Source: a virus
Reading direction: 5' to 3' (one strand)
DNA length: 61,408 nucleotides
IMG/VR virus record: IMGVR_UViG_3300049214_000177
Span: 1-61,408 of that record
The position numbers were made by a program, and so were the translations under genes. Below are positions 2,997 through 49,400 of this stretch, in pieces (positions within the stretch are counted from its first letter, which is position 1; each line of letters starts with the position of its first letter). The notes below the pieces were generated by a model that was given only the letters and a program-made list of their open reading frames with translations, did no database searches and was not told where the DNA came from.

Positions 2997-3009
2997 GAAA
3001 CCTTTCGGG

Positions 3010-3231
3010 CTACGGTCGCAGCGATCGCAGCACGGACTGACGTCCGCGGATGCGCTCACGGAGGTATTTGATCTGCGATTTCTGGACGTCGAGATCGCGC
3101 TTCGCATTGCTCTGGCGTTGAATGAGCAGGGGAAGGCCCGACTCGAGTTCATCGAGCCGAGCCTGGGTCGCGATGATGTCCTTCGCGATGTCCTCTTCAA
3201 GCAGTTGATGCTCGGTATCGGAATCGTGCAT
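3010..3231 (-). CDS. Small coiled-coil protein
   Basis: This 73-residue protein starts at ATG 3231, two bases after the stop of the SSB-like gene, and ends 13 bases before the initiator start. It is acidic at the N-terminus, then a continuous charged heptad-like helix, then a basic tail. It looks like a single coiled coil. It lies between the candidate single-strand binding protein and the initiator, so a replication accessory role is plausible but unproven. Confidence 0.7.
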   Translation of the reverse strand: MHDSDTEHQLLEEDIAKDIIATQARLDELESGLPLLIQRQSNAKRDLDVQKSQIKYLRERIRGRQSVLRSLRP

Positions 3232-6331: not shown

Positions 6332-6585
6332 CACGCAGCCTCCATCAATTCGAAGAGTGAGGGGTGCGCGCTCAGCTCGTACTCGCGAATATCCATCGCG
6401 GTCGTCGCCGCGAGATGCAGCGCCTGAGCACGCGCCCAAAGGGATTCCGTCGTTTCACGCATGTACGCGAGCTTGACGCTATCCATCTGCGCGATCGGCA
6501 CCGATACGTCGAACTCGCGATCGACATAGATTGCGACGGTCGGCAGATCGAATGATCCGGGGTCGACGACGATATCGACCGCCAT
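6331..6585 (-). CDS. Hypothetical early protein (84 aa)
   Basis: The gene starts at ATG 6585 in a TAATG junction and ends in a TGATG junction. The N-terminal half is beta-rich and acidic (VAIYVDREFDVSVPI), the rest helical. The family is not recognised. Confidence 0.65.
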   Translation of the reverse strand: MAVDIVVDPGSFDLPTVAIYVDREFDVSVPIAQMDSVKLAYMRETTESLWARAQALHLAATTAMDIREYELSAHPSLFELMEAA

Positions 6586-6842
6586 TACGGATACACCGCC
6601 GGATAGGTCGCCGTCGCCGCGCGCTCGCGCATCTCCGCGCCGTTCGCTTCGAGCGCGTGGTTGCACGTCGCGCATAGGCGCTGGGATCGCACGGGCGACG
6701 CGGACGTCACTTCGGCGACCGAGTACGTGCGGCCGCACGCAAATCCGAGATAAGTGCCGGCGGCTCCGGTCGTGCGGTCCGTCGCAAAGTGCGCGATCGT
6801 CGAGACAGAGCCGACGAGGCGATACCACGATGCCGCGCTCAT
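6585..6842 (-). CDS. Hypothetical protein with CATC motif
   Basis: This 85-residue protein is coupled at both ends (TGATG start, TAATG stop). It has a Gly/Thr/Ser-rich N-terminal half with an isolated Cys and a CATC motif at about residues 57-60 followed by an His, a possible half zinc knuckle. The function is unknown. Confidence 0.6.
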   Translation of the reverse strand: MSAASWYRLVGSVSTIAHFATDRTTGAAGTYLGFACGRTYSVAEVTSASPVRSQRLCATCNHALEANGAEMRERAATATYPAVYP

Positions 6843-7006
6843 CAGTCTGCGCTCCGCGAGAGAACGCAGATCAGGTCGCGTTCGCCCGACGTGTCGGCGA
6901 CGAGCGACGTCGCGCCGTAGCTGCTCGAATAGATCAGGAGGGTCTTGGCGTTGCGGACCGCCCGTTCGAGGCGCTGCATCTGCCGGGCGGAAATATCAAC
7001 GCCCAT
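6842..7006 (-). CDS. Hypothetical miniprotein (54 aa)
   Basis: The gene starts at ATG 7006 in a TGATG junction. The sequence begins MGVDISARQMQRLERAVRN, a helix, and continues as a small alpha/beta unit (TLLIYSSSYGATSLVA). No family is recognised, but coupling on both sides supports translation. Confidence 0.6.
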   Translation of the reverse strand: MGVDISARQMQRLERAVRNAKTLLIYSSSYGATSLVADTSGERDLICVLSRSAD

Positions 7007-7545
7007 CAGACGGCACACTCGTTGACGCGCTCGACGATCGGCTCGTCCGAGATGGCGGGATCGATCGTCGTCGTCCGCAATACCCGGAGCTCGAACCGCA
7101 ACCGGCCGATCTCGAGTTCCAGCCGCGCGTTCTCGTTGCGTTTCTCCGCGAGCTGCATCCGAAGCGTGTCGATCGCGGCCTTGGGCTCTTTGAGGCGATC
7201 GTACTCGTGGCGATCGACGAGCACGTCGTCGCGCAGCTTCGCGAGCATCTCTGCCGCTTCGTGCGTGCCGCCGTGCGCGAGAAGCACGATCGCGCTTGCC
7301 GCGGCCAATTCTTTCTCGCACGTCTGGCACGCGGTGATCGTCCGGTAGATCATCGCCTTGCACGTGCTGACTTTCCAGCCTTGCGCGATGGTCGCGTCGA
7401 TGTTCGCGGGATCGACCGGGCGATACACGTCGACCTCACGCGACTCGTTGTCGTCGTGGATCGCGAGCTCGCAATTCTCGCAATCGCCGGTGACACCGCC
7501 GTCGATGTCGTCGTAGGAGACGCCCGCGGGAAGGCCGTGTGGCAT
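7006..7545 (-). CDS. Zinc-ribbon plus coiled-coil protein
   Basis: This 179-residue protein has CENC (about residues 22-25) and, after an insert, CQTC (about 73-76), so one four-Cys zinc site is plausible. The C-terminal third (about 115-160) is a charged heptad-like coiled coil. It starts at ATG 7545, one base after the stop of a small upstream gene. Possibly a transcription or replication adaptor; unassigned. Confidence 0.7.
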   Translation of the reverse strand: MPHGLPAGVSYDDIDGGVTGDCENCELAIHDDNESREVDVYRPVDPANIDATIAQGWKVSTCKAMIYRTITACQTCEKELAAASAIVLLAHGGTHEAAEMLAKLRDDVLVDRHEYDRLKEPKAAIDTLRMQLAEKRNENARLELEIGRLRFELRVLRTTTIDPAISDEPIVERVNECAV

Positions 7546-7546
7546 G

Positions 7547-7684
7547 TTACGCGACCTCCGGGGACGGCGACGGTGCGGGCGCGGCGACGGCCGCGATCGG
7601 GAGCTTGAGATAGATCACGCCACCGAGGACGAAATAGCGTCCGGTTGACGGCGACGGGGAAAGTGGGGTAGACTGCTGTTGCAA
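7547..7684 (-). CDS. Small protein with TTG start
   Basis: A 45-residue frame begins with TTG 7684, placed five bases after a perfect GGAGG. The sequence is a Pro/Ser-rich start, a hydrophobic stretch (RYFVLGGVIYLKLPIAAVAA) and a Pro/Ser tail. It ends one base before the next start (TAACATG), which favours co-translation. The rare start codon is the main doubt. Confidence 0.4.
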   Translation of the reverse strand: MQQQSTPLSPSPSTGRYFVLGGVIYLKLPIAAVAAPAPSPSPEVA

Positions 7685-7695
7685 GACGGCCTCCG

Positions 7696-7725
7696 AAACC
7701 CGGCGATTTACGGTCGCCGGGTTTT
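7696..7725 (-). terminator. Hairpin after the excisionase-like gene
   Basis: AACCCGGCGA at 7697-7706 pairs with TCGCCGGGTT at 7714-7723 around a seven-base loop. It begins just downstream of the minus-strand stop at 7727 and carries T runs on both strands (TTTT on plus, TTT on minus). It could partly terminate or process the early transcript. Confidence 0.5.
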
Positions 7726-7726
7726 C

Positions 7727-7981
7727 TTATTTGTGAGTGTGTTTAGGGGACGATGCGCGGCGAAGATAGCCGCTGTCGAAAAAGGCTTGGATCGCATCGC
7801 GCCGATAGCGCGGGAGCGATCGCGTGCCGCGCGCCGGCGGAATGCGATGCTCGCGAAGTAAGCCCGACTCGGCGTAGCGCACGACGCTGACGGTCGAGAT
7901 GCCGATGAGCTCGGCGACCTCGGCGCGCGTGTAGAGCCGCGCGTCGGTGTGACCCTCGGGCCACTTGATGACGGCGTTCAC
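7727..7981 (-). CDS. MerR/excisionase-like helix-turn-helix protein
   Basis: This 84-residue protein contains a winged helix-turn-helix of the MerR/excisionase (helix_turn_helix_17) type: LYTRAEVAELIGISTVSVVR, then a wing region and RRDAIQAFF. Such small proteins act as recombination directionality factors or transcription regulators. Its position near the beginning of the early operon, about 3 kb from the integrase, makes excisionase a good candidate role. It starts at ATG 7981 with an ATGA overlap. Alternatively it may be a DNA-binding regulator only. Confidence 0.65.
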   Translation of the reverse strand: MNAVIKWPEGHTDARLYTRAEVAELIGISTVSVVRYAESGLLREHRIPPARGTRSLPRYRRDAIQAFFDSGYLRRASSPKHTHK

Positions 7982-8217
7982 GCCGCTTCACCGAGATCGA
8001 GGCGGCGGTTCGCGATGACGAGCCGTGCGCGAATGTCCTCGATCGTCAGAACGAGATCGAGTTGACCCGCGCGCCGGGCCGCGTCGGAGACGAGATCGCA
8101 GTGCGCGATCGTCTCCATGAATTGCTCTTGGGTTGCTGCCAAGAGCGACTGCTCGAAGGTCCCGCGCGGTCCACGCGGCCTGGGATTCGTCGCTGGTACG
8201 ATTTCGTCGCCAGCCAT
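7978..8217 (-). CDS. Hypothetical early protein (79 aa)
   Basis: The gene starts at ATG 8217, one base after the stop of the Cro-like gene (TAACATG), and overlaps the next start by ATGA. A basic Pro/Arg/Gly N-terminus is followed by a helical domain. Second gene of the early operon; function not recognised. Confidence 0.65.
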   Translation of the reverse strand: MAGDEIVPATNPRPRGPRGTFEQSLLAATQEQFMETIAHCDLVSDAARRAGQLDLVLTIEDIRARLVIANRRLDLGEAA

Positions 8218-8425: not shown

Positions 8426-8497
8426 GCCGCGATCTTACACCTAGGAGTTCTCTTTTGTAAACCCCTAAGCGTTCTCTTCTTTGTTTATTCTCGCTGA
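8426..8497. promoter_or_regulatory. Divergent lysis/lysogeny control region with operators
   Basis: Leftward promoter: TTTACA (complement of 8456-8461), 18-base spacer, TAAGAT (complement of 8432-8437), then six bases to the ATG at 8425. Rightward: TATTCT at 8486-8491, then six bases to the GTG at 8498, with no clear -35. Two direct repeats, CCTAGGAGTTCTCTT (8440-8454) and CCTAAGCGTTCTCTT (8464-8478), sit 24 bp apart and overlap the leftward promoter. They are the likely operators of the repressor and/or the Cro-like protein. Both transcripts appear leaderless. Confidence 0.7.
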
Positions 8498-9070
8498 GTG
8501 GGCGAGTTAGAGCGGGATGAGACCTTCACCGAGCGGTTCAATCGCCTGACGGCCAATATGACCGACGGCCAGTTGATGGACCAGCTCGGTTTGACGATGA
8601 CGGCCCTGAGAAAAATCAAAGACGGAACGACCCGGACCCTGAAGCTTCGCGGAGGGCTGCGTCTCGCGAGATACTTGGGCGTGTCGCCCTGGTATCTGAT
8701 TTGTGAACCCGAGCCTCGTGACGACGCTTCTCGCGACGCCGCTCTTGTCGATCAGCTTCACGATGATCTGGTCGAGGAAATGCTAGACGAAGCCGTTGCG
8801 GCGGCGCTCAAAAGGTCAGAGAAAAACGATCGACCGAATCGCAACGTCGGCCCAGTGATCCCGCTCGGCGCTATCGGGCGCGACGGAGCCGCGATAGAAG
8901 CCCGCCTTCGATCAGTTGAAGTGCTGACGGCGGAAATTCCGGGGATATCTGCCGATCTGGAAGCAACGGTTGCTGCCCTTGAAGAGCTTCTAGGCGAACT
9001 CGACGTGCGGCGCAACTTGCGCGAACTGATCCAATCGAAGCGTAAGCCCATACAAGGGGATCAGTCGTGA
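8498..9070 (+). CDS. Lysogeny repressor, N-terminal helix-turn-helix
   Basis: This 190-residue protein starts at GTG 8498. Residues about 20-65 (TDGQLMDQLGLTMTALRKIK through LARYLGVSPWYL) form an XRE-type helix-turn-helix, with the PWYL end common in repressor-like regulators. The rest is acidic and helical, with a leucine-rich C-terminus suited to dimerisation. There is no LexA-like Ser/Lys protease signature, so RecA-stimulated autocleavage is not supported. It is divergent from the Cro-like gene and upstream of the integrase, the usual place for the CI-equivalent. Confidence 0.75.
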   Translation: MGELERDETFTERFNRLTANMTDGQLMDQLGLTMTALRKIKDGTTRTLKLRGGLRLARYLGVSPWYLICEPEPRDDASRDAALVDQLHDDLVEEMLDEAVAAALKRSEKNDRPNRNVGPVIPLGAIGRDGAAIEARLRSVEVLTAEIPGISADLEATVAALEELLGELDVRRNLRELIQSKRKPIQGDQS

Positions 9071-19252: not shown

Positions 19253-20725
19253 GTGGCAATCAACTCAGGAGCAGCCGGCAATGGTCTGCCGAATGCGATC
19301 ATCAATGTCATCGAGCAACAGAACTATCTCGATCGACTCCTCCGTAAAGCGCTTCGCGCGAAACGCGTTTTGCGCGCGGCTGCGGCGCAGCGTTCGCTCG
19401 AATACTTCGACGCGCGGATCGGCGAATCGAAGACCTTCACGCGGACCGGCGCGATCACGCCGAGCACGACGGCGCTCAATCCGGCGAACAACACCGGTCT
19501 CGACAACGGCCTGACGCCGGTCACGCGCGGTTTCGAGCAGTGGGTCTCGTTCCTCAACGAATGGGCGGGCGCGGTCAACCTCAACGTCCTCGGCAACGAG
19601 ACGCTGCTCGGCGATCTCTACGAAGACGACATGGTCGAACTCGCGGAAGCCGCCGAAACGTCGCTCGAAAACGTGTGCTGGCTGCGCGCGATGGCCGCGT
19701 ACGATTCCGGCGACACGTGGGCGACCGCAGCGGCGGCCGCTGCGAATTCCGTCCACGTCGACAACATCACGGGCTTCTCGACGGCGTATCCGACGGCGAA
19801 CGTCCCGTCGTACGGCCTGCCGCAGCCAGTCTCAACGACCAACAAACTCGCGATCCTCGTGATCAGCGGGTCGTCCGGCGCCGTCATCGGGTCGGCAAAC
19901 GTCACTGGCGCAACCGCGGACGGCTCGAACGCAAGCTACATGCAGACCGGCGCGACCGCGTACGGTTTCTCGGGCGTCCTCACGCTCGACGCCAACATCA
20001 CGTGCGCCCTCGGCGATCGCATCGTCGCGATGGACCCGAACAATCCGTCGACGACGACCTTCAACCCGACGTACAAAGACGGCTCGTACGTCGTGCGTCC
20101 GCTCAACGCGGGCGTCATGGTGCAGGACGCGTATCGCATGGCGGCGACCAACATCGTCGCCCCGTCGATCCAGATCCCGCAGATGGTCGCGCTCCTCTCT
20201 CGCCGACGCGTGCCGCGCCTCTCGAACGGTCTCTACGGCGTGGCGATCGACGCGACGCTCTTGGGCGCGTTCTACAGCGATCAGGGTTTCCAGATCGCCA
20301 CGCAGGGCACGTTCGACCGTTCGCCCGTGTTCGAGAACGGCATCATCGCCAAGGGCTGGGGCGTCGAGTTTGTCGAGTGCTCTCAGGTCCCGGTGTACCA
20401 AGCGCCGACCGGCGGATTCGCGCTGCGGCACGCGTTCGCGTTCGGAGCGGACGTCATCAGCGAGCACCCGTTCATCGGTGCAAAAAACGCGCAGACCGTC
20501 GCGGCGCGCGCGGGCGACATCACCGACTCGCGGTGGATCGATCGTATCCGGATGATCACGCAAGCGCCGCTCGATCGCGCAAACGAAGTCGTGAAGATGA
20601 CGTACAAATACGTCGGCGATTTCCAGCCCGGCACCGACAAGGCGTCGAATCCGTACATCATCAACACGTCGGATTTCGCGCGGTACAAGCGCGGCGTGCT
20701 GCTTCAGGCCGCATCGTCGTTCTAG
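19253..20725 (+). CDS. Major capsid protein
   Basis: This 490-residue protein follows the scaffold and starts at GTG 19253 with GGGAGG upstream. It begins with a helical arm, and about residues 140-270 are Ser/Thr/Gly-rich, probably an inserted surface domain. The C-terminal half has the helical/beta pattern expected of an HK97-fold coat protein (QIPQMVALLSRRRVPRLSNG, FALRHAFAFGAD). A strong hairpin follows the stop. The assignment is by gene order, size and composition. Confidence 0.85.
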   Translation: MAINSGAAGNGLPNAIINVIEQQNYLDRLLRKALRAKRVLRAAAAQRSLEYFDARIGESKTFTRTGAITPSTTALNPANNTGLDNGLTPVTRGFEQWVSFLNEWAGAVNLNVLGNETLLGDLYEDDMVELAEAAETSLENVCWLRAMAAYDSGDTWATAAAAAANSVHVDNITGFSTAYPTANVPSYGLPQPVSTTNKLAILVISGSSGAVIGSANVTGATADGSNASYMQTGATAYGFSGVLTLDANITCALGDRIVAMDPNNPSTTTFNPTYKDGSYVVRPLNAGVMVQDAYRMAATNIVAPSIQIPQMVALLSRRRVPRLSNGLYGVAIDATLLGAFYSDQGFQIATQGTFDRSPVFENGIIAKGWGVEFVECSQVPVYQAPTGGFALRHAFAFGADVISEHPFIGAKNAQTVAARAGDITDSRWIDRIRMITQAPLDRANEVVKMTYKYVGDFQPGTDKASNPYIINTSDFARYKRGVLLQAASSF

Positions 20726-21364: not shown

Positions 21365-22195
21365 ATGTTGACGCAGCACCAGCGGATCGCGGTACGGCGT
21401 CACCTCAACATCGGATTCGCGGGAACCGGGCAGGCGGGACGTCTCGCCGGTTGGCGGTTCTCGCGATTCTTCGAAGACCTCGAATACAAGATGAGCAACA
21501 TGCAGCCGAGTGAGGAGCAGATCCTCACCGGCAACGCGATGGGCTCGTACGCGATCAACGGCGCCCCGGCCGTCGGCGACGTGCTGACGTACACGCTCGC
21601 GCCCGCGTCGGGTTCGCCGATCGCCGCGAGCTACACCGTCACTTCGAACGATCTCAACCCCGCGTCGAATCCGGTGAATCCGTCCGAAGCGGCGCCGACG
21701 TTCTCGATCGCTTTGAATTCGGCGCTCGCGTTCAACGCCGCGGCTCAGGCTGCGGGATACAGTGCGGTCGGCGCGATGCCGGCGGACCTATTCTCGCCGC
21801 AATATCTGCCGCCGTACTTCGCCGAGCTGATCGTCACGGGACCGTCGTCGACGCCGTTCGCTCTCTCCGGGAGCGTCGTCGGCCGCACGAACCTCGTCGT
21901 CGAGGATCCGGGCTCGGTCTGTCCGGTCCAGGCGACGTTCACCAATCCAACGACCAACGTCTCGGAAACCGTGTACGGACTGATCGCGATCTGCGACTTC
22001 TTGGCGAACGCGATGACCCAGGCGTCACTGAGCTTGTGGCTCACGAAGGCGGATGTGATCGCATTCCGGCCCGATGAGGTCGGCGCGCGGCGTGGCCTCT
22101 ACCGCGAATACTGCATGCAGCTCGCGAAGGCGATCGGCGGCGACGAATACATCCGCAAATTCAGCGGTGCGTCCGGCGGCGGTGCGTGCGCGTGA
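21365..22195 (+). CDS. Probable head-tail connector region protein
   Basis: This 276-residue protein begins MLTQHQRIAVRRHLNIGFAG, similar in flavour to the N-terminus of phage head-tail adaptor proteins, followed by a Ser/Thr/Pro-rich beta region (about 70-200) and a C-terminal helical end. GAGGG precedes ATG 21365. It overlaps the next gene by GTGA. The role is inferred from position. Confidence 0.6.
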   Translation: MLTQHQRIAVRRHLNIGFAGTGQAGRLAGWRFSRFFEDLEYKMSNMQPSEEQILTGNAMGSYAINGAPAVGDVLTYTLAPASGSPIAASYTVTSNDLNPASNPVNPSEAAPTFSIALNSALAFNAAAQAAGYSAVGAMPADLFSPQYLPPYFAELIVTGPSSTPFALSGSVVGRTNLVVEDPGSVCPVQATFTNPTTNVSETVYGLIAICDFLANAMTQASLSLWLTKADVIAFRPDEVGARRGLYREYCMQLAKAIGGDEYIRKFSGASGGGACA

Positions 22196-22583: not shown

Positions 22584-23090
22584 ATGGCCGCACCCACGCT
22601 CGTCCTCAGCGAGACGAATACCGCTGCGGCGACGGTGACGGATAACGTGCCGACCGTCGCGTTCGCTTCCGTCGACGCCGCATCGACGAATACGCTCTCG
22701 GGACTCAACGCGGTCGCCGTCGGCAACAACAGCTTCGAGAAATACGAGCGCTTCAAAGTCACGGGCGTCGCGCCGAACAACATCAGCGCGATGGGCATAG
22801 CGTACTCGGCGACGGCCGCAACCGATTCGGGCGGCTCTTCGTCGACCGTGGCGGCCAAGTACGCAGCGAACGTCTCGTACGCGACGCCCGTCGCGACGAC
22901 GTCCACGGTTGCGACAAATGCGGTCACGGGGGACACGGGCACGCCGGGAACGAGTCTCACGGCGCCGGCGAACACGGTCGGCTCGTACAGCGCGTATTTC
23001 TGCATGCAGTTCCAGTCGACGAGCGGCGCGGCCGGCGGCAACGCGATCTTCCCGAGCCCCTTCGTGACGGGTAACTACACGTGGAGCTAA
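22584..23090 (+). CDS. Probable structural/decoration protein (168 aa)
   Basis: This protein is Ala/Thr/Ser/Val-rich and beta-predicted throughout, with a repeated pattern of short strands and no charged helices, as in phage decoration or minor head proteins. AAGGAG lies just upstream of ATG 22584. The role is inferred from composition and position. Confidence 0.6.
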   Translation: MAAPTLVLSETNTAAATVTDNVPTVAFASVDAASTNTLSGLNAVAVGNNSFEKYERFKVTGVAPNNISAMGIAYSATAATDSGGSSSTVAAKYAANVSYATPVATTSTVATNAVTGDTGTPGTSLTAPANTVGSYSAYFCMQFQSTSGAAGGNAIFPSPFVTGNYTWS

Positions 23091-23092
23091 CC

Positions 23093-23743
23093 ATGCTGGA
23101 TCATCTCGATGCCCCGGCTCCGGCCGGTTCCGAACTCGTCGCGCCGATCAAATCCGTGGCGCAGTCGCATCGTGACGAGATCGCGTGGCGGAACGCGTGG
23201 ATCAACGACGATCGCGTCGCGTCGTACTTCTGGGCCGTCACGCGCGACAAGAAAGTCGTCGTGCAAGAGTACGATCCGTGCGACTGCCAGGACGAACCCA
23301 CGAGTCCGACCGCGCACCGCAATCATTTCGTCGACATCCCCGGCGTGTGGAAGCCGATCGTGATCGGGCAAGCCGACGCGGCGGACTACGCGCACAACCC
23401 GGTCAAGGTCGACGTCACGATCCCGGCGTTCGAGGCGACCACGGACTTCGCGCCGTTCATGTTCCACGCGGTCCCGAAGACGCTCCACCACCAATCGCTC
23501 GCGTCGCTCTCGGTCGAAATCGAGCCCGGGATGGCGATCGTGTACGGGCACCGCACCGTGACGAATCGCCACGACGGCGGCTCCCATTACATGGAGTCGC
23601 TCGTCTTTGGCCGCGTGCTCGCGGACAAGACCGAAGAAGTCACGCAGGTCTATCCAAACGGCGACGTCGTGACGCACGCATCGCTCGCCGAGGCGCTCGC
23701 GCACGAGCACGAAACGCGCGGGCCCTCGAGAGTGCCGGCCTAA
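23093..23743 (+). CDS. Hypothetical structural-region protein (216 aa)
   Basis: ATG 23093 is preceded by TGGAG; a GTG at 23081 in frame is less likely because it lies within the preceding gene. The protein has a helical N-terminus, CDCQ at about residue 62, then a beta-rich body (TIPAFEATTDFAPFMFHAV) and an His-rich C-terminus. The family is not recognised; it probably belongs to the virion. Confidence 0.6.
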   Translation: MLDHLDAPAPAGSELVAPIKSVAQSHRDEIAWRNAWINDDRVASYFWAVTRDKKVVVQEYDPCDCQDEPTSPTAHRNHFVDIPGVWKPIVIGQADAADYAHNPVKVDVTIPAFEATTDFAPFMFHAVPKTLHHQSLASLSVEIEPGMAIVYGHRTVTNRHDGGSHYMESLVFGRVLADKTEEVTQVYPNGDVVTHASLAEALAHEHETRGPSRVPA

Positions 23744-23758
23744 CCCGGAGGGTAGCTC

Positions 23759-25786
23759 GTGGCGATTTCGGCCCCGGTGCACACCCCGGCGTCTTCGGGG
23801 TTCTCGACCGCGGGCACGGGCACGAGCCTGTCGATCCCCTGCACGGGTTCGACGAGCGGCAACCAGCTGTACGCGGTCGTCGGCTGGGCCACGACAACGG
23901 GGATCACGGCGACGCCGTCGTCGGGCTGGACGCTGGCCGCGAACACGAGCAATTCTCCGAATAATCAATCGGTCTACACGCGCACGGCGACCGGCTCCGA
24001 TACGCTGACGATCACGTTCTCCGCGAACGTGAATCGTGCAACGATCGTGGCGTTCGAGTATTCCGGCTCCGGCTTGGATCAGGTCGTCTTCAACTCGCCG
24101 TCGCAAAGCACGTCGCAGGCGGGTCCGAGCTGCACGCCCACGGATACAAACTCCGTCTCGCTGTATCTTTTCTGCGCGTTCGACACGTCCCCGACGCTCG
24201 TCGGCGTTGCGACAAATCCGAGCGTCGGCACGTACGTCAACGACGTCTCGGGCGGCACGGCGTCGAGCTACACAATTCAGACGGCGTCGGCGACGTACGC
24301 GAACACCTCGGGTGCCGCGTCGACGATCGTGTGGTCGAGTGCGGCAAACTCGCCGATCAACACGCAGATCGTCCTCGCGCCGCTGGTCACGCAAGCGACG
24401 GGGACGGCGACCGCGAGGCTTGCCGTCACGGCCGCAAAGACGCGGAACGCAACGGCGCAGCTCGGAACGCGCGCCGCGAAGACGGCAACGGCCACAGCCG
24501 ACCTTGCGGCATCGGCGTCGATCTCAAGTAGCGGGTCGGCGGCGGTCTCGAATCCGGCCACCGCGCCCACGCCCGCGAGCGCCACGATCGCGAAGCCCGC
24601 ATCGCAAACGGCATCGGCGTCGGGAACACTCGCGGCGCCAAGCGCCTCTGCGCGTTCGGCATCCGGTGCGATCGCGATACCGGCGACGAAGTCCTCGGGC
24701 GCCGCGGCCACGATCGCGACGCGAAGCGCGGACGGCGTTCCCGCCTCGGCGACGATCGCGCGACCGGCGAGTCAATCTTCGGCAGCGACGGCGCGCCTTG
24801 CGGCCTCCGCGACGTCGCCAACGCCCGCGACCGGCGCGCTCTCTTTGCCCGCGGCAAAGCCGTCTGGGGCGACGGCGACCCTCTCGACCTTGGGAGCGGA
24901 TGCGATCCCGGCGTCCGCGAGCGTCGCGCGCACCGCGAGCCAATCCGCGACTGCGACCACTAGGCTTTCCGCGGCGGCCGCAGCGACATCCCCCGCAAGC
25001 GCCGATCTCGCCACGCCGTCGAACAACAGCGCCTCGGCGTCCGCACGGCTCACGAAATCCGCATCGCAGCCTGCGGGCGCGTCTGCGACGATCGCGGCAA
25101 AAGCGAACGCGTCGAGCCCGGCGAGCGCGGCTCTGCGCGCGAGCGCCACGCAGGCATCCGGCGCGACCGCAGCCCTTGCAAAGAGCGGCGCTGCCCCGGT
25201 CGGCGCAAGCGCGGATATCTCGACGCCGGCTGCGGCAAGCACGACGGCGAGCGCGCGTCTCTCGCTGCACGGATCGGTCCCGCGCGGCGCGTCGGCAGCC
25301 GTCGCTGATCCGGCGTCGATCGGAACCGGCGCGTCGGCCGACATCTCCAAACCCGCCGCTCTGGTGTCGGGCGCCGCAGCGCGCCTTTCCGTTCCCGCAG
25401 GCGTCTCCGCTTCCGCGTCCGGCGCGATCGCAGCTCGGTCGGCGCGTGGATCCGGTGCCGCGCTGACGATCGCGCGCCCGGCGCAAGCCACGCTCTCGGC
25501 AAGCGCGCATCTCGCTCGCGTGGCGCTGTTCGCGGCGCTTGCGACCGGAGCACTCTCGCTCCCGGCCGCAGCAGATGCGAACGCGAGCGCGACGATCGCA
25601 CGTCCGGCCGGTGTCGCGGTCGGCGCGTCGTTCGTGCTGCTCGAGGTCGCGGGTCGCGTCACGTGCGGCATCGCGGTGACGCAGCCGCTCATTTCGCTTG
25701 GCATCGTGGCGGACCAAGCTGTGACGATCGCGACGCCGATCGCGGCGAATCCGACGACCTCGATCGTGCTACCCGTAGGAGCGTGA
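23759..25786 (+). CDS. Beta-module plus 29 x 14-residue repeat protein
   Basis: This 675-residue protein starts at GTG 23759 with GGAGGG upstream. Residues about 10-212 form a beta-sandwich of the same kind as five domains in the giant protein at 40480 (GNQLYAVVGW, PSSGWTLA, FEYSGSGLDQ). Residues 219-624 are 29 consecutive 14-residue units without a single insertion or deletion, consensus A-x-[L/I/V]-[A/S]-x-x-A-x-x-x-x-x-A-[S/T]. The last 51 residues are a hydrophobic cap. The composition is Ala/Ser/Thr with few charges. It lies between head and tail genes, so a virion fibre or decoration with a repetitive shaft is the best guess. I know of no named family for the repeat. Confidence 0.8.
   Translation: MAISAPVHTPASSGFSTAGTGTSLSIPCTGSTSGNQLYAVVGWATTTGITATPSSGWTLAANTSNSPNNQSVYTRTATGSDTLTITFSANVNRATIVAFEYSGSGLDQVVFNSPSQSTSQAGPSCTPTDTNSVSLYLFCAFDTSPTLVGVATNPSVGTYVNDVSGGTASSYTIQTASATYANTSGAASTIVWSSAANSPINTQIVLAPLVTQATGTATARLAVTAAKTRNATAQLGTRAAKTATATADLAASASISSSGSAAVSNPATAPTPASATIAKPASQTASASGTLAAPSASARSASGAIAIPATKSSGAAATIATRSADGVPASATIARPASQSSAATARLAASATSPTPATGALSLPAAKPSGATATLSTLGADAIPASASVARTASQSATATTRLSAAAAATSPASADLATPSNNSASASARLTKSASQPAGASATIAAKANASSPASAALRASATQASGATAALAKSGAAPVGASADISTPAAASTTASARLSLHGSVPRGASAAVADPASIGTGASADISKPAALVSGAAARLSVPAGVSASASGAIAARSARGSGAALTIARPAQATLSASAHLARVALFAALATGALSLPAAADANASATIARPAGVAVGASFVLLEVAGRVTCGIAVTQPLISLGIVADQAVTIATPIAANPTTSIVLPVGA
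24413..25630 (+). repeat. 29 tandem 42-bp (14-codon) units
   Basis: The DNA encoding residues 219-624 of the 675-residue protein is divisible into 29 in-phase 42-bp units. The units are diverged at DNA level (for example ATIARPASQSSAAT versus ADISTPAAASTTAS), which argues for long selection on the repeat fold rather than recent expansion. Confidence 0.8.
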
Positions 25787-25787
25787 G

Positions 25788-26117
25788 ATGCAAGCTGGAG
25801 AGTCCGGCCTGCTCTTTACGATCGATTCGCTTGCCGGTCAGCCCGGTCAGATCACGACGGCGTCACTCGCGACGGCCACGTGCACGCTCACGGTCGCCGG
25901 GCAGATGCGCGGCCCGAACGGCGAGTTTCCGCGCGTCGTCGTCCCGACATCTCGGCTCACGCCGACGGGCGACGGCCGTACGTTCCTCTGGCACCAGCTC
26001 GCGACGGACACGCCGTATCCCGGCACGTACGAGCTCGCACTCGTTGCTACGTTCCCTGACGGCGTCACGGTGCGTATGTCGACGCCCGGCTTTTTAACCG
26101 TCGACCCGAGCCCGTAG
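25788..26117 (+). CDS. Small beta-rich structural protein
   Basis: This 109-residue protein starts two bases after the repeat-protein stop (GTGAGATG). It is an all-beta, Ig-like sequence (TCTLTVAGQMRGPNGEF, TPYPGTYELALVATFPDGV), like short baseplate or neck proteins that resemble receptor-binding adaptor domains. It may partner the repeat protein. Confidence 0.65.
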   Translation: MQAGESGLLFTIDSLAGQPGQITTASLATATCTLTVAGQMRGPNGEFPRVVVPTSRLTPTGDGRTFLWHQLATDTPYPGTYELALVATFPDGVTVRMSTPGFLTVDPSP

Positions 26118-26127
26118 GAGATGCGCG

Positions 26128-26901
26128 ATGAGCTATCGGTCGCAGCTCGCGGGCGTCGTGCAGCTCGGTCGCGGTGTCGTCGGCACGATCCTCGGCGACA
26201 ACTTCTCGGTCTTTCGGCTCGCCGTCACGACCAACGGCGCGATCTTTGCACAGTCGCCGATCATCCCGCTCTACAACGCGAAACTCGCGAAAGCCAAGAA
26301 GCAAGATATCGAGAGCACGACGTTCGATCTCGAGATTTTCGAGGCGAAGGCTGATAACCGGACGCTGCAGCTCGGTGACGTGCTCGTCGGACTCGGGCAA
26401 GACGATCCGGCCACCTATGTCTTCGCCCAGGCGCGAGACTTCAAGCCGACGCTCTTCGTCCGCACCGAGTTCCTCGGCACGATCTCGCGGCCGGGTGGCC
26501 TGCTGGGAACGCTCGCGGATCAGCCGACGAGCGGCGCGGTCTCCGATATCGGCTGGATCGGCGCCACGATCGCGAGCGGCACGACGCCGTCGGATGCGCT
26601 GGTGCTCACGCTCGCCGCAGGCTCGTATGCCTTCGCCGCGACGGGCGCATCCGCAGTCGTGCCGATCGGGCTCGCGCAAACGCGTCGAAACAAAGCGTCG
26701 AACACGCCCGCGCTGCCGGCGACGGAGTACGTCGATGATTTCGTCGGCTACACGCCGCCGCTGCCCGGCGTGACGCTGCAACAGTTCGACGTGCTTGATC
26801 TCGGTGTCGAGGGTCGCTTCCAGGTGATCTCGCTCTTCGAGAGCCAAGGCAACGTCGGGCTCGTCGGCAACGTCCTTATCCTGCAAAAGCTGCCGTCGTG
26901 A
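26128..26901 (+). CDS. Hypothetical neck/head-tail protein (257 aa)
   Basis: Alternating strands and short helices, with GDVLVGLGQDDPATYVFAQA and a Gly/Ala/Ser-rich centre. GGAG precedes ATG 26128. It overlaps the next gene (GTGA). Located between the repeat protein and tail genes; probably a virion neck or minor head protein. No family is recognised. Confidence 0.6.
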   Translation: MSYRSQLAGVVQLGRGVVGTILGDNFSVFRLAVTTNGAIFAQSPIIPLYNAKLAKAKKQDIESTTFDLEIFEAKADNRTLQLGDVLVGLGQDDPATYVFAQARDFKPTLFVRTEFLGTISRPGGLLGTLADQPTSGAVSDIGWIGATIASGTTPSDALVLTLAAGSYAFAATGASAVVPIGLAQTRRNKASNTPALPATEYVDDFVGYTPPLPGVTLQQFDVLDLGVEGRFQVISLFESQGNVGLVGNVLILQKLPS

Positions 26902-40479: not shown

Positions 40480-43400
40480 ATGCACGCTCGGCAACGCGCG
40501 TTTCTTTTGCTATGCGCGCTCATCGTGATGCTCTGCGGCATCGGCACGAGTCGATACGCACCCGCAACGGCCGGAGCACCCCCGACGCGCCCGCCCGCAC
40601 CCTCGCCGACGCCGTACGTGCTGCCCTCGGGATACTGTTACGCGTACGTGACGTTCCCGACCGTCACGATCGTCTACACGCAGCCGACGTCCGGTTCGTA
40701 CGTTCGCATCGTGCTCCCGTGCCAGGGTTCTCCGACGTCGTCGCCGTCGATCGCGCCATCCGTCGCACCGAGCGCCTCGGCCTCCGCAAGTGTTGCTCCC
40801 TCCGCGAGCGCTTCGGCCAGCGTGCCGCCGACGTCAACGCCAACGCCCGTACCGTTGCCAAGCGCTTCGGGGCTGCTCATTCCGCCCGCCGGGCAGATCT
40901 ATCTCGGCGCGCGCGTCAATCCCGGGAGCGCCTGCTCGAATACCAATCCATCATGTCTCGACACTGCGATCAAAACGCTCGAATCGTCGATCGGACGCAC
41001 GCTCTCGATCGCGAGCTCGTTCTTCTCGTGGTCGAATCTCGGCGCCACCTTCCCGACGTCCCTCGAAACCGACGACGTCACGACCGGCCGCTATCCGGTC
41101 CTCGCGTGGGATTGCGCATATTCCGACGCGTCGGTTGCCGCGGGCTCGCACGACGTCGACATCGACTCGGCCGCGCGCGCGATCAAAGCGTACGACCATC
41201 CGGTTTTCGTGCGGTGGTTCTGGGAATTCAATCTCCCGAACACGGCGAACAATCGTGCGTCGTCGTGCTACAACCCCGGCGTCGGTCCGGCCGATCCCAC
41301 GGCCGACGGCGTCAACAGCCCGGACAATCTGACCAACCCGGGTGAGGTGCCCGCGAACTTCTTCAGCCCGAAAAATTTCGTTGCGGCGTGGCAGCACATC
41401 CATGCGCGCTTCGTCGCCGACGGCGTGACGAACGTCATCTGGGTGTGGTGCCCGGGTAACGGCACGGCCGGCCCCGCGATCAACTACTACTACCCCGGCG
41501 ACACGTATGTCGATTGGCTCGGCTACGACGCGTACGATACGGCTGGTTCGCCGACCGCGACGTATCTCGCGACGCCGTACCAGAAGATCACGGGCGTTAC
41601 GTCCGGCAAGCCGATCATCTTCACCGAGACGGGCGTTCCGGCGGCGAACCAGGTGTCGGTCTTCGCCGCGACCGCGACGACGCTGCAGCAGATGTTCCCG
41701 CTCATCCGCGGTTACGTGTATTTCGACGCGAGCGGTCCGGCGGGATCGTGGTCGTTCTCGACGAGCACGCCGCCGCCGAACGGCCTGACCGCGTTCACGA
41801 CGCTCGCGGGCACGTCGTATCTCGGCGCTCCGGGCCCGTCTCCGAACGCAACGGGTCTGCCCACGCCGACCCCGACGCCGACCCAGGCTCCCACGGCCAC
41901 GCCGAGCCCCACCGCGACGCCCACGGCCACGCCGACGAATACGCCGACCGCGTCGCCGAGCCCGAGCCCGAGCGCGAGCGCGACGGCCACCGCAACGGCC
42001 ACGGCAACCGCTACGGCCACGGCGACCGCCACGGCCAGCGCGAGCCCGAGCGCAAGCCCGTCTCCCACGGTTTCGCCCGCCGTCCTCAAGACGGGTGCCC
42101 CGTTCCTCGATGCGTCCGCGACCGGTTCGCAATCGGTCGTGATCCCGATCTCCGCGACGATCGGCGACACGCTGATCTACGCGGCCGCGTACTCAACCGT
42201 CGGCGCGACGCGCACCGTCACCGCTCCGAGCGGCTGGACGCCGTTCGTCAACTGCCAAAACAAGACCAACGGGAACGTCGGCATCGCGCCGTTCCAGCAC
42301 GTGGTCGCCTCGGGCGATCCCGGCTCGACGGTCACGTTCACGGTAACGACAACCGGCACGTCCTTGCCGTCCTCGGGCGTGCTGTACGACATCGGCAACG
42401 GCGGCACGACGACATCGACGTATCTCGCGGGTGCGGCCCCCACGACGCCGGGCGCGCTCGTCGGCTCGGGAATCTCCGGTGCTTCGACCGCCGTATTCCT
42501 CGCCTTCTACGGCGTTGCGGACGGTACGTCGGCAGGCGACGTCACGCCGGTTTCCGTTACGGTCCCCTTCGGTTCCGCAGTCGTTGCCGAGCCCGCGACG
42601 ACGACGATGATCGGCACGTCCGCCACGAACACGGGCGGTGCGTCGATCACGCCGGGCGCGACGGTCGGCACGTACGCGCAAACGTACGTCGCGTGCACGG
42701 TGCGCGTGGCGAGCGCTTCCGCACCGACGCCGTCGCCGTCACCCTCCGCAACGGCGAGCCCGACCGCGACGCCGTCGCCGACCGCGAGCCCCACGGCGAC
42801 GCCGACGGCTACCGCCACGCCCACGAGCACGGCAACGCCGACCACGGCGCCGACGAGCACGCCGACGCCGACGATCCCCGGCATCGCCGCGCCACCGATC
42901 GCGGGCTCGAACGCGATCTCGCGCGCTCAGAACCTCGTCGACTCGATCGGCATGAACACGCATCTCACCGCGGGCGACATCTACGCGTCGACGTCGACCG
43001 TCGAAGCGATGCTCGCGCTCACGGGCGTGCGCCACATCCGCGACGGCGAGCACGTCTCGACGTCGATCATGTCGGCGCTCTATCTCACCAACGGCGCGAA
43101 GCTCGACGCAATCATCGACGGTAGCTCCACGACCTCAACCGTGACGACCGCGCTCTCGCCGTTGCAGAACTACCTCGACGGCGCCGAGGACGTCAACGAG
43201 TGCGACATCTCGGGCATCCAAGGCTGCACGACCTCGAACTACTACTCGGTCGAAGCGACGACGCTCGAAGCCGCATATCCGGCGGTAAAAGGTCTGTCGA
43301 CGGGCTTCTTCATGCTCGGGCCCGCGAACACGTCGCAAGCCGCATACGCTGCGGTCGCGTGCGATGGTCCGGCCGGTAGCTGTACGCAGACGCCCGGCTA

Positions 43401-46400
43401 TCTCTATCCGGCGTATCTCGACGCGTGCAACATGCACGACTACGTGAACAACTACCGCGAAGAGAATAGCGGGTTCGGCGGCTACATCGGCAGCCCGATC
43501 AACGCCACGTACGGCACGCTGCTCTACAACATCAACAATTCACTTCAGGTCTGCGGCGGTCCCGGTGCGCCGATCGTCTCGACCGAATACGGCTGGGGCG
43601 ATTACGGCGGCGTCGATTCGGGCAACGACTCCGTCGGTCAATCCGTCTCACCCGCGGTCAAAGCGGATTACGTCGGATCATCGTTCCTTTTCGGTTGGTC
43701 GCAAGGCGTCTCGCGATCGTACTATTTTCAACTCGCCGACGATGGAACGCCCGGCAACGCGGGCGTGACGCCGGGATACGGCGCGCACGGCGTGTTCGAT
43801 ACGACGGGTGCCGCGAAGCCGGCTGCCGTCGAGATCGGCAATCTCACGCGCCTCTTCTCGGATAGCGGCTCGACCGCCAACACGTTCGCGGCGACCGATT
43901 CCGTCGGCGTGTCGCTGGCCGATCCGAGCGGCATGCACCATCTCCTTGTCCAAAAATCGGACGGCAGCGAGTGGCTCGCGTACTGGAACGGCTGCAGCGA
44001 GTGGAACGTCAACACGAACGCGCCGCAGTCGTGCTCGCCGATCTCGACGGCGACCGCCACGTTCACGCATGCGCCGACGAGCGTTGCGCTTTGGACAATC
44101 AACCAAAACGGCGACGGCAAGATGACGACCGCGAGCGTTGCGCCCGCATCGTCGATCACGCTGACGTACGAGCCGTACATCCAAGTGCTGCAGCTCAACG
44201 CGTCGAGCGCCGTGACGCCGGTCGTCGCGCCGACGCCGACGAGCGGCCCGACGACGACGCCCGCTCCGACCGCAACGCCGACGACCCCACCGAACACGAC
44301 GGGCTCCGGTACCGTCTCGTACGTCCAATCGAATTCGCTCGACGGCAACACGGCGAATTACAACATCACGCTCGCCGCGACGCCGTCCGCGGGCGATGCG
44401 CTGCTCTCGTACGCGGCGCTCGCGACCGGACGCGCTCTCGCGTCGACGACGCCGGGCGCGCTCGCATCGACCGCGACGGGCTACCTGCTCAACACGTACG
44501 CGGGATCGAACGGCGAAGTGGTGTCGTTCGAAGGCGGGATCGTTCCGAGCTCGCCGCCGGCGACGTACAACGTGCAGACCTCGGGCGGATTCGCCTGGGG
44601 CACCGATGCGATCGCCGAATACACGAACGTCGATCAGACGACGCCGTTCTCATTCGTCGGCACCGGCACGACGGGTACGGGTCCGGAGGCGATCGGCTTC
44701 CCGGCGGTGAGCATCTACCGCACGGGATCGATGGTCGAGTGCGCCGTCATGGTCAACGTCGGCGGCGCGACGAATAACGACTTCGTGTCGAGCCCGACGC
44801 CGCCGAGCGGCTGGGCGTTCGATACGATCAACTACGCGGGCTCGAATCAGGCGCTCTTCGCGATGCACACCACGGGTGCGCCCGCACAAGGCTCGCTCTC
44901 GATCCCGACGATCAACGTCGAGACCAACACGTACAACGTGTGGGACTCGAATTGCGTCGTGATCCAGCCGCCGCTTTCGGTTCTGCCGTCGCCGACGCCG
45001 AGCCCGACGAGCACGGCCACGAGCACGCCGACCCCGTCCCCTTCTCCGTCCGCCACCGCCACCGCAACCGCAACCGCGACGGCAACGCCGACTCCGACGC
45101 CGACGCCGACGGCCACGGCAACCGCCACGGCTACGGCGACGGCCACCGCCACCCCGACTCCGACGGCCACGCCGACGATCGCGGCACTCTTCACGAAGAT
45201 CGCAAACGGCAACTCATCGGCGCCGCAGGCATCGACCTCGCTCACGATGTCCGGCAATTACGCGAACACGACGCTCTACGTCATCGCAGCCGGCGCGACC
45301 TCATCGGCGAGCCTCACGTCGAACTCGACCGGATTCACGCTCGTCGGAAGCTCACCGCCCCAGGCGGCAAACGGATTCGTCGTCTACTCGATCCCATCCA
45401 ACGGCGGCGAAACGTACACGTTCACGGTCACCGGTCCGACGACGAACATCAGCCTTTCCGCGTACGAGACGAATATGACCGTGCAAGACGCACAGTCGTA
45501 TATCGACTCGACGGTTATCTCGGCAGGGCCGCTCACGCCGTCCGTCGCGAACGATTTCGCCTGGTTCTTCGGCTCGTACACGGCTCCCACGACGACCGCA
45601 CAAGCTCCGGCGTGCACGCCGCAATCCGGATGGACTCCGGTCTACGCGTTCGTCGGCCCGACGCCGACCGTGACGAGCTCGCCCGACGTCGCCTTCGAAA
45701 CGCAAACGCTCGCGAACGTGCCGATCGCGGCGACGACGGGATCGTGCACGCTCTCGAGCGCGCTGACCGGATCGGCCGGCCTCGTACTCTTCAAGACCAC
45801 CTCGCTCGCATCGCCAGCGCCGACGCCCACCCCCGCACCGACGGCGTCGAACGCGCCGACCGTCTTCCAGACGCCGGGCTCCGATAACACGTTCACGACC
45901 GCGGGCGGTGCAAACGGCACGCTCCCGGCCACGACGACCGCGGGCCACACGCTCCTCGCCTTTGCGGTCGGCTCGAGCCTCACCGCGCCCGTCGGCTGGA
46001 ACAACGGCATCACGGGCAGCGGCACGCAGCTCTCCGTGTTCTGGTGCTACGTCGGCACGGGTCTCGGGCAGTGCGCTCCCGCATCGACCTGGAACTTCGG
46101 CGGATCGTCTGCGGGCGGCATCGTGCGCGTCGTGGAATACGCGGGCGTTCTCGGCGCACCGATCTTCCCCGCGGCGACGTCGATCTCGCTAGCGAGCGGC
46201 AGCGATACGCTCACGCCGTCGCTAAACATCCCGGGCACGAACGGCCTCACGATCCTCGCGGACGGCGCGACGGAAACCGGAACCGCAACGATCACCTCGT
46301 TCAACGATTCGTTCGTCGGCGGGTATTCGGATGTGTCCGGCGATTCGAACCGAAACAAGTCGCTCTCGACGGGCAACATCGATTCGCTGCGGATCGATTA

Positions 46401-49400
46401 TGTGACGGGTGACGCGCACGCCGGAACGCAGCCGTTCACCGTCACGCAGACGACGACGGCGAGCGCGAGCGGCATCGCGATCAGCCCGTACCTGATCTTC
46501 CTTTCGGGTGCGTCGACCGTCCCGGCACCGAGCGCGACGCCGGTGCCCACGGCGACGCCGACGCCGGTACCCACGGCCACGCCGACCGCGTCGCCGACTC
46601 CGCTACCGCAAGCGACGATGCCGTACACGGTGATGCTCGGCCAGGATTTCGCGTGTGGATCGAGCTCAAACGGCTCGCTCGCGAATCCGACGGCGGCGAG
46701 TCCCTCGCTCAACCCGAGTGCCGCGCCGGCGCTCAACGGCACGCATCCGATCATCATCGTCGACGAAAACGCGGGCGCGCAGACGACGCCGTACGCGCCG
46801 AGCTGCACGGCGCCACCCGCGTGGGGTGCGCAATATCTGCTGCGGTTCGCGTCGTACGCCGATCTGCAATCGGCCGCGACGACGCCCGGCGTCATTCCGA
46901 CGACGTCACCGGGCGTGCCGCTTTTCAAATACGTGATGTACGACAACGAAGTGAACACGCAGCCCTCGACGCCGCCGAGCGAGCTTCCGTCGGTCGGATC
47001 TAACTCCGTTCCCGCGTACTATTACTACGAAGCCTCACAAGCCGTCGCGGCTTTGCCCGGGTCGCCGATCTTCATCGCGACGGCCGGACTCTCGGGCACG
47101 ACGACGCAAAATAACGAGCTCTGGGCGACGGCCGGATACTGGGGTGCGTGGGACGCGCAATCGCAGACCGCCGGCTCATCGGTTTCGAATTGGAGCAGCT
47201 CGTGGGGCGCGAACGTCGCGAATCTTTTCGCGTACAACACGTCGCTTCAGGTGTTCCTCGGCGTCGGCCAAGTGCTGAGCGGCGGCACCGAAGCGACGCA
47301 GGCGCAACTCGATGCGGTAATGGCCGCCGTTCCGCCGAATTTCCGCGGCGTCTGGATAAATCTCGGGCAACAAACGGTCGGCAGCAATCCGCCCGTCACG
47401 ATCCCGAATGCGTATGGCCTCGGAGCGCAAGCGATCGTCGACACGGCAAACGCGGGCGTATCCGCGACGCCATACCCGATCCCGACATCGACCACGGCCG
47501 CGACGCCACCGCCAGCGCCGACCCCCACGCCTCCGGCTACGCCGACGCCCGCGCCGACGCCGACCGCGACCGCGACCGCAACGGCCACGCCGACGCCGTC
47601 GCCGACCGGCACGATCGCAGGCGTCGCTCCGGCGACGCTCTGCATCGGTCAGCCGAACGGTCCCGCGCTCACGTACAATCTCGTCTACGACGACGAATTC
47701 GCAAACGATACGAGTCTCAACACCGGTACGCCGACAGCGGGCGCGTTCAACGTGAGCGATACCACGAACGTCGCGCCCGTTTCAGTCAGCGCGGGGAGCT
47801 CGCCGAACGGATCTGCGTACCAGCAGGTCGTGTGGAGCACGTGCTACTGGTCTTTCGGGTGCACGAACGAGGGCCTCGACGGATCGGACGACTCGCGCTA
47901 TCTCAAGCGTACCGAAGTCGCGAGCATTCAGGCGAATCACGGTTCGACGCGCTATCCCGACGTGATCGCGCTTGTGCCTGGCACCGGATTGCAGATCAAG
48001 GCATATCCGGCGAGCGGCGTTGGATCAAACACGTACTCGACGACGAGCTCGACGTACACATTCAACTCGTCGACGATCACCCTGGCAGCCGTTCCGTCAC
48101 CGATCGCGACCGGAGATACACTCTTCATCCGCGGCGACGGCAACGAACCGACCGTCGCGAGCGTCTCCGGCAACACCGTCACGCTCTTGACCGAGAACGT
48201 CTCGACGACGACCTCCGCATCGTACACGTCCGGCGCGACGACGATCACCGTCGCGAGCGCGTCCGGCATCGTCGCATCGAATTCGACGAAGGCGCAAATC
48301 TCAGGTGATGGCGCGTCGCCGACCGTCGTCTCGGTGTCCGGCAACACGGTCACGCTCGACGAAGGCTTCAACTCGAACCATGCGAGCGGCGCGACGATCA
48401 CGTTCGTCGCGAACGCGTTCACGGGCCCGGGTTATAACTCGAGCTATCCGTCGGGTACGACCGTATCGGATATTCCGGCTGACGTGCAGACGATCATGTG
48501 CCACGCGGGCGGTTACGAGATCGGCTGCCGCCACAACGTTGCAGCACTGATCGATGCTGGAGATCAGACCGCAAAACGGCAAGGCTATTGGGTCTGGTCC
48601 GCGATGATTCCTGACGGATCGTCGTCGCTTCCCGGATACTGGCCTTCGGACTGGGAAAATTGCGAAGGCAACGGCTGCACCGGCGGCAACACGCTCTATC
48701 AAGAGCACGACAATTTCGAGGTCTTTTCGACCGTCGAAGGCGAGGGAAGCGGCCACCAGACGATCCAGCCCGAGAACGGTGAATACTGCCCCGGCGCGGG
48801 CGCCGGCTGCCCGATCTCGGTGCAGCTTGTCGGCCCCGGACCCGTAACCGGGCCGCAGTACAACTTCATGAAGAGCACGACGCTCGCGACGCAGTTCCAT
48901 CAGTACGCGACGATCGGCAACGGCACGTACGCGGGCTTCTGGTTCGACGGCGTTCCGGGCTCGACCGCGATGAACGATGTGCCGGTCGCGACGAACACCT
49001 CGATCCCCGGCCAAAACGCGCTCGCGACGGCACAGACGACCGAGAACGGTGCGGGCTCGCCGACCGTCGCGGGTGAGGCGCCGGGCGTCATCACCGAGCA
49101 ATATTTCCGCTATTACGCAGCGACGACGAACACGTGCAGCACCGTCGCCGTGACGGCCATCCCGCCGAGCCCGAGCCCGCCGCCGACCGTTGCGCCGAGC
49201 GCGGGGCCGTACATGCCGTTCCCGGCGAACGCCGATACGGTTGCGACGGCATCCAACATCGTCGTCACGGCAACCTCGTCGCCCGCGATCGGCGATTATC
49301 AGGTCGCGCACATCGTGAGCAACGCCGGAGGCGGGGGCTCAGGGCCGAGCGGATGGACCGCCGCGATCCCACCTGCGAACGGTCAGCATCTCGCGGTGTG

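Follow-up and report, generated by a model that had tools for sequence, protein, structure and literature searches.

Genomic setting of the repeat gene

The window, a 61,408-base IMG/VR virus record, is the genome of a contractile-tailed phage and carries, between its head and tail genes, a gene for a 675-residue protein with a long array of 14-residue repeats (Table 1). Together with the genes starting at 22584, 23081 and 25788, the repeat gene at 23759 forms a cassette of four genes that spans 22584-26117.

Table 1. Features of the repeat gene, its cassette and the surrounding virion genes; positions are those of the window and L002 is the best related phage found
Feature	Position	Strand	Remarks
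Terminase	15238		
Portal	16718		Weak Pfam match and position
Scaffold-like	18416		
Major capsid	19253-20725		36% identity to the corresponding L002 gene
Left boundary gene of the cassette, head-connector position	21365-22195	+	Conserved in L002, 30% identity
Cassette gene, 168 aa	22584-23090	+	Thr/Ser/Ala-rich; no family match
Cassette gene, 220 aa	23081-23743	+	No confident family
Repeat-protein gene, 675 residues	23759-25786	+	GTG start; GGAGG-type RBS ~9 bases upstream
N-terminal region, residues 1-216	23759-24406	+	Residues ~15-105 predicted beta-sandwich, pLDDT ~72
29 gapless 14-residue units, residues 217-622	24407-25624	+	By lag self-identity and column composition
Degenerate 30th unit and C-terminal tail of ~39 residues	25625-25783	+	
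Cassette gene, 109 aa, small Ig/Rib-like	25788-26117	+	Weak PF08428 match, E 0.024, below cut-off
Right boundary gene of the cassette, neck position	26128-26901	+	Conserved in L002, 34% identity
phrog_13532 gene	26898		
Sheath-like protein	28035		Weak Pfam match and position
Tape measure	31169		
Baseplate J	37301		

The phage L002 shares 30-64% identity with the window from terminase to tape measure. Its homologues of the boundary genes 21365 and 26128 lie side by side, at 6581-7363 and 7440-8198, and none of the four cassette genes has a tblastn match in L002. A search of the L002 record (a 34 kb piece) with the repeat profile A5, described below, also found nothing. Since L002 has the flanking homologues adjacent and without the cassette genes, the repeat protein belongs to an accessory insertion between the head and neck genes. 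The original prediction had located the protein among virion genes, which is borne out by the surrounding terminase, capsid, tape measure and baseplate genes. Between two neck genes, L002 has an ORF for a response-regulator-like receiver (8460-8822) that the window does not have there.

Two further features of the window are recorded here. Firstly, short direct repeats of ACTCCCGGAGT (11 nt, near-palindromic, about nine copies) and five copies of ATCCGA are found at 2454-2591, inside a replication-initiator gene on the minus strand (2013-3200), directly behind its conserved domain. Their appearance is that of origin iterons within an initiator gene, an arrangement known from lambda O. Secondly, 40480-49923 encodes a 3147-residue protein that has several low-complexity tracts rich in Pro and Thr and, at residues 304-361, a short match to glycosyl hydrolase 26 (E 2e-6). 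This giant protein is probably part of the tail or serves in adsorption.

An old 14-residue repeat that recurs in unrelated viral proteins

The original prediction counted 29 units of exactly 14 residues without indel at residues 219-624 (24413-25630), and its coordinates, unit length and count were all correct; this is the same array as that in Table 1, in a phase shifted two residues later than the motif-first phase used here. The degenerate 30th unit covers residues 623-636 (ASFVLLEVAGRVTC). Self-identity of the protein peaked at multiples of 14 only (z = 8.2, 11.5, 10.8 and 10.9 at lags 14, 28, 42 and 56) and was negative at lags 13 and 15, which confirms the predicted period. The 29 units have the consensus A-[ST]-[AG]-x-[LIV]-[AS]-x-[PSR]-A-[AS]-x-x-x-[GSP]. 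One phase holds [LIV] in 29/29 units, against a maximum of 13 in 2000 shuffles; Ala occupies column 0 in all units but one (28/29), Pro occupies column 7 in 14/29, and there is no conserved Gly column, with Gly in at most 10 of the 29 units at any column. No convincing superperiod, odd/even or three-fold, was seen among the units.

Unit-to-unit identity exceeded that expected from composition at codon position 1 (0.449 versus 0.314) and position 2 (0.587 versus 0.451) and was near chance at position 3 (0.359 versus 0.327), and DNA identity between units reaches 69% at most. Therefore, the repeat is old and conserved at the protein level, and the reading frame of 23759-25786 is correct. Codon-position conservation and codon use rule out a wrong frame or a low-complexity DNA artefact. 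A recent DNA tandem array is ruled out by the limited DNA identity of the units, by the weak third-position signal and by Tandem Repeats Finder, which reported nothing over the array.

A tblastn search of 50,697 phage records, with low-complexity filter, gave no relative of the window protein, a peptide-pattern search of IMG/VR gave no direct relative and a search with alignment A3 gave no PDB chain. IMG/VR was also scanned with a degenerate DNA pattern in which four A-[ST-like]-A-x-[ILMV] motifs follow one another at a spacing of exactly 42 nt; it matched 46 stretches. With near-identical DNA repeats and non-coding frames taken out and diverged copies in long ORFs kept, 11 distinct proteins were left: L004, L009, L017, L018, L019, L021, L022, L033, L038, L044/L046 (one protein spread over two contigs) and L048. 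The unit A-[ST]-A-x-[LIV]-x9 is thus present in 11 unrelated viral proteins, with 6 to ~70 units each and the pooled consensus A-[ST]-A-x-[LIV]-x-A-[AP]-[VIA]-x-x-[TAS]-x-[TSP]. Spacing is 14 in 68/71 cases in L018, 18/18 in L004 and 36/41 in L033, with occasional spacings of 13, 15, 16 or 17. The notion of diverged units with a fixed length therefore holds for the window array, which combines low DNA identity with the absence of indels, but is too strict for the relatives. Control patterns of 13 and 15 residues matched 10 and 18 IMG/VR stretches but contained only 0 and 1 diverged arrays, respectively. The single 15-residue array, L062 (2221-6615, upstream of a head-tail adaptor gene), mixes spacings of 14 and 15 residues in alternation, 13 of each, which suggests that the unit tolerates one extra residue in the turn. 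The longest array seen is that of L018 (1-3840), with ~70 units in one viral ORF; the tail behind the array shows the pattern EYxxxTxTxEY.

Profile A5 was built from in-register blocks as an ungapped alignment of 126 columns and 18 rows, including window rows and leaving out L021 as well as L018, whose units MAFFT had aligned out of register. Both proteins left out were detected by it, L021 with E 9e-14 and L018 with E 6.5e-10, as was the window protein, whose rows are part of the profile (E 6.3e-25). We define here the class of A-[ST]-A-x-[LIV] 14-residue viral repeats, to which the window array belongs as an in-phase diverged array detected by A5. A second degenerate pattern, with Gly allowed at column 2, matched chiefly frames that were antisense or rich in Ala, and no clear new member. 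At E 1e-9, A5 matched none of 760 bacterial genomes, a sample of the three bacterial classes to which Paraburkholderia, Pseudooceanicola and Streptomyces belong; prophages are a small part of these genomes. In GTDB genomes the 14-residue pattern matched at least 117 stretches. Among the matches listed, DNA tandem repeats with nearly identical copies prevailed, and unit identity was lowest in L162 (0.50), L077 (0.57) and L116 (0.58). L018, L048, L038 and L033 gave no match among phage isolates (tblastn with low-complexity filter, 50,697 records). From these searches the arrays look virus-associated, the cellular side being represented by the three sampled bacterial classes.

The relatives share unit and period with the window protein, but their heads and tails are unrelated to its own and some of their arrays contain indels. 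Most consist of a beta-rich head, the array and a short tail. The head is a TIG domain in L004 and Laminin_G in L038, and the other heads are beta-rich without significant resemblance to the window N-terminal region, which had no significant match when searched alone either. Many relatives lie in virion modules: terminase, portal, capsid, tape measure and fibre assembly genes are among the neighbours of L004, L009, L017, L022, L038 and L048, and family-matched neighbours are mostly head, packaging or tail genes. The neighbours of L033 and L046 have no family match, and the family-matched neighbour of L018 is a glycosyltransferase. Overall, the neighbour genes support a virion role of the repeat proteins.

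Predicted structure of the repeat

The mean-unit hydropathy of the window array has its largest power share at period 2.0 (36%, p = 0.014), and this beta-type alternation was also significant in L033 (p = 0.002), L038 (0.011), L009 (0.016), L004 (0.018), L017 and L021. The helical harmonic of 3.5 was significant in no array tested. A helical repeat or coiled coil, in which the 14 residues would be two heptads, has in its favour that 14 is a multiple of 7 and that the units of L004, L009 and L038 (ATASLDAAIQxARS) look compatible with a helix. With Pro at column 7 in almost half of the window units, a beta-type pattern in the Thr-rich L022 and no helix in the structural model described next, we consider it hardly credible.

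AlphaFold2 without an alignment modelled only residues ~15-105, as a beta-sandwich, and left the repeats unmodelled with pLDDT below ~30. The nearest structures to this N-terminal domain, all of middling score (best Z 7.2), were jelly-roll, CBM and phage RBP-head folds of a generic kind. With A5, nine units gave nine strands, each on motif columns 0-7 (pLDDT 60, pTM 0.56), and this low-confidence model implies two units per solenoid rung. Since sequence alternation and model agree, one strand per unit is better supported than the fold topology, which is hypothetical and taken from the model. The solenoid or fibre that had been proposed thus stands as a regular beta structure with a fixed step, while its topology depends on a model with pLDDT 60. 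One turn or strand pair per 14 residues, as originally envisaged, is not what this low-confidence model shows. AlphaFold tends to stack repeats into solenoids, which counts against the A5 model, and a monomer prediction cannot reveal a trimer.

The composition rich in Ala, Ser, Thr and Pro, together with the failure of AlphaFold2 to model the region without an alignment, could also indicate a disordered spacer, a flexible linker with residual periodicity. Such a linker has no reason to keep a period or a face, whereas the array keeps [LIV] in every unit, has no indel over 406 residues and alternates between two sides. Moreover, the unit recurs in unrelated phages and the control periods do not. 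Therefore, disorder seems improbable.

The structure nearest to the A5 model was CsgA in Foldseek (E 0.4, not significant) and SufD in VIA (Z 8.4, 125 residues, 2.7 Angstrom), and BFVD gave no significant match. CsgA and SufB-SufD are narrow, flat two-sheet solenoids with two strands per rung, as the modelled repeat would be, but there is no sequence relationship and the match is weak. The rung would comprise 28 residues in the repeat model, and that of CsgA comprises ~22.

The best reading of these results is that the accessory protein would be a virion component with a scalable beta-solenoid or beta-fibre stalk. In its specific form, to which we assign a probability of about 45%, the N-terminal beta-sandwich is carried by a beta-solenoid stalk with two units per rung and serves in binding to the host surface. 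Each unit would form one beta-strand (A-[ST]-A-x-[LIV]-[AS]-x-[P]) followed by a Ser/Gly/Pro-rich turn of 6-7 residues, with the small and hydrophobic residues (A, A, L/I/V) facing inward and Ser, Thr and polar residues facing outward. A narrow two-sheet beta-solenoid would arise from the stacking of consecutive units, two to a rung, and the number of units would set the length of the stalk: with a rise of 4.8 Angstrom for each rung, the 29 units of the window would measure ~7 nm and the ~70 units of L018 ~17 nm. On head, neck or tail, the C-terminal repeats would then be the stalk that carries or spaces the N-terminal domain, a probable binding or docking domain. Its most plausible use would be to bind the host surface or host glycans weakly.

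Shafts of phages and other viruses are usually trimers, and three chains might instead intertwine into a beta-fibre in which the unit is one shaft strand and the A/A/[LIV] face is buried between chains. Odd and even units do not differ in unit identity, so all units appear equivalent; the solenoid model needs this, but it is equally expected of an intertwined trimer, which fits one strand per unit just as well. In addition, the structural neighbours of the N-terminal domain include the trimeric phage RBP head, the C1q head and the Bd2439 fibre tip. No phage-shaft or adenovirus-shaft family was recognised in the arrays, and we regard the trimer as a serious, if rather unlikely, alternative to the solenoid stalk. 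Adenovirus and phage triple beta-spirals and triple beta-helices are similar in that tandem short beta repeats form a virion shaft next to a globular domain. Their units have ~15 or 8 residues and other motifs, and no triple beta-spiral shaft profile in Pfam, PHROGs or NCBIfam matched the window protein.

Relation to named repeats and meaning of the finding

In the beta-roll of YadA type, column 3 is a small core residue. A left-handed parallel beta-roll of this kind, with one 14-residue unit per turn, deserves consideration since the YadA-type head repeat has a unit of equal length and its motif, GxNSVAIGAxSxAx, also places a Ser three residues before an Ile (PMC9543794). YadA-type head arrays vary in length as well, with 42 units in BpaC (PMC9543794). 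Window array and YadA-type head (PF05658) thus share a 14-residue unit, gapless stacking, variable array length, a part in surface adhesion, which is putative here, and an Ala/Ser-rich beta repeat. However, YadA needs a conserved Gly and SVAIG, whereas the window unit is A-[ST]-A-x-[LIV], without the (N)SVAIG motif or a conserved Gly. YadA repeats are found in trimeric autotransporters and window-type repeats in phage proteins, where the low-confidence model has one strand per unit and not two. The window protein matched 0 Pfam families at an E threshold of 1, and PF05658 was not matched by any of nine relatives at 0.1 either. Because motif and Gly are absent and column 3 is charged in 20% of family units, we reject membership of the YadA-head family. 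A roll of this type is very unlikely, and a stacking stalk similar to that of YadA is possible.

The window protein had no match in Pfam, PHROGs or NCBIfam, the relatives tested had no repeat match there, and the literature searched contained no paper on such a phage repeat. The original remark that no named family with this repeat was known is thus consistent with the libraries, but it overlooked the YadA-type head, a named 14-residue beta repeat (PMC9543794) whose motif is absent here; no other named 14-residue beta repeat was found. Since it is missing from these libraries and has no tblastn relative in the phage records, the repeat is invisible to current annotation, and profile A5 could find further members.

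Repetitive beta stalks of viruses are a known kind of structure, of which the A-[ST]-A-x-[LIV] repeat, unnamed, recurrent and length-variable, is a probable instance in virion modules of uncultured phages. We tentatively propose that uncultured tailed phages use this virus-restricted beta repeat as a modular stalk of adjustable length, joined to many different lectin-like heads, and that its fold, either an intertwined trimer or a stack with two units per rung, matches no solved phage fibre. Host range and particle retention are determined in phages by fibres and decoration proteins. If the proposal is true, an exact short repeat with 6 to ~70 copies across unrelated phages would act naturally as a ruler-like stalk and would be a candidate for a designable beta scaffold.
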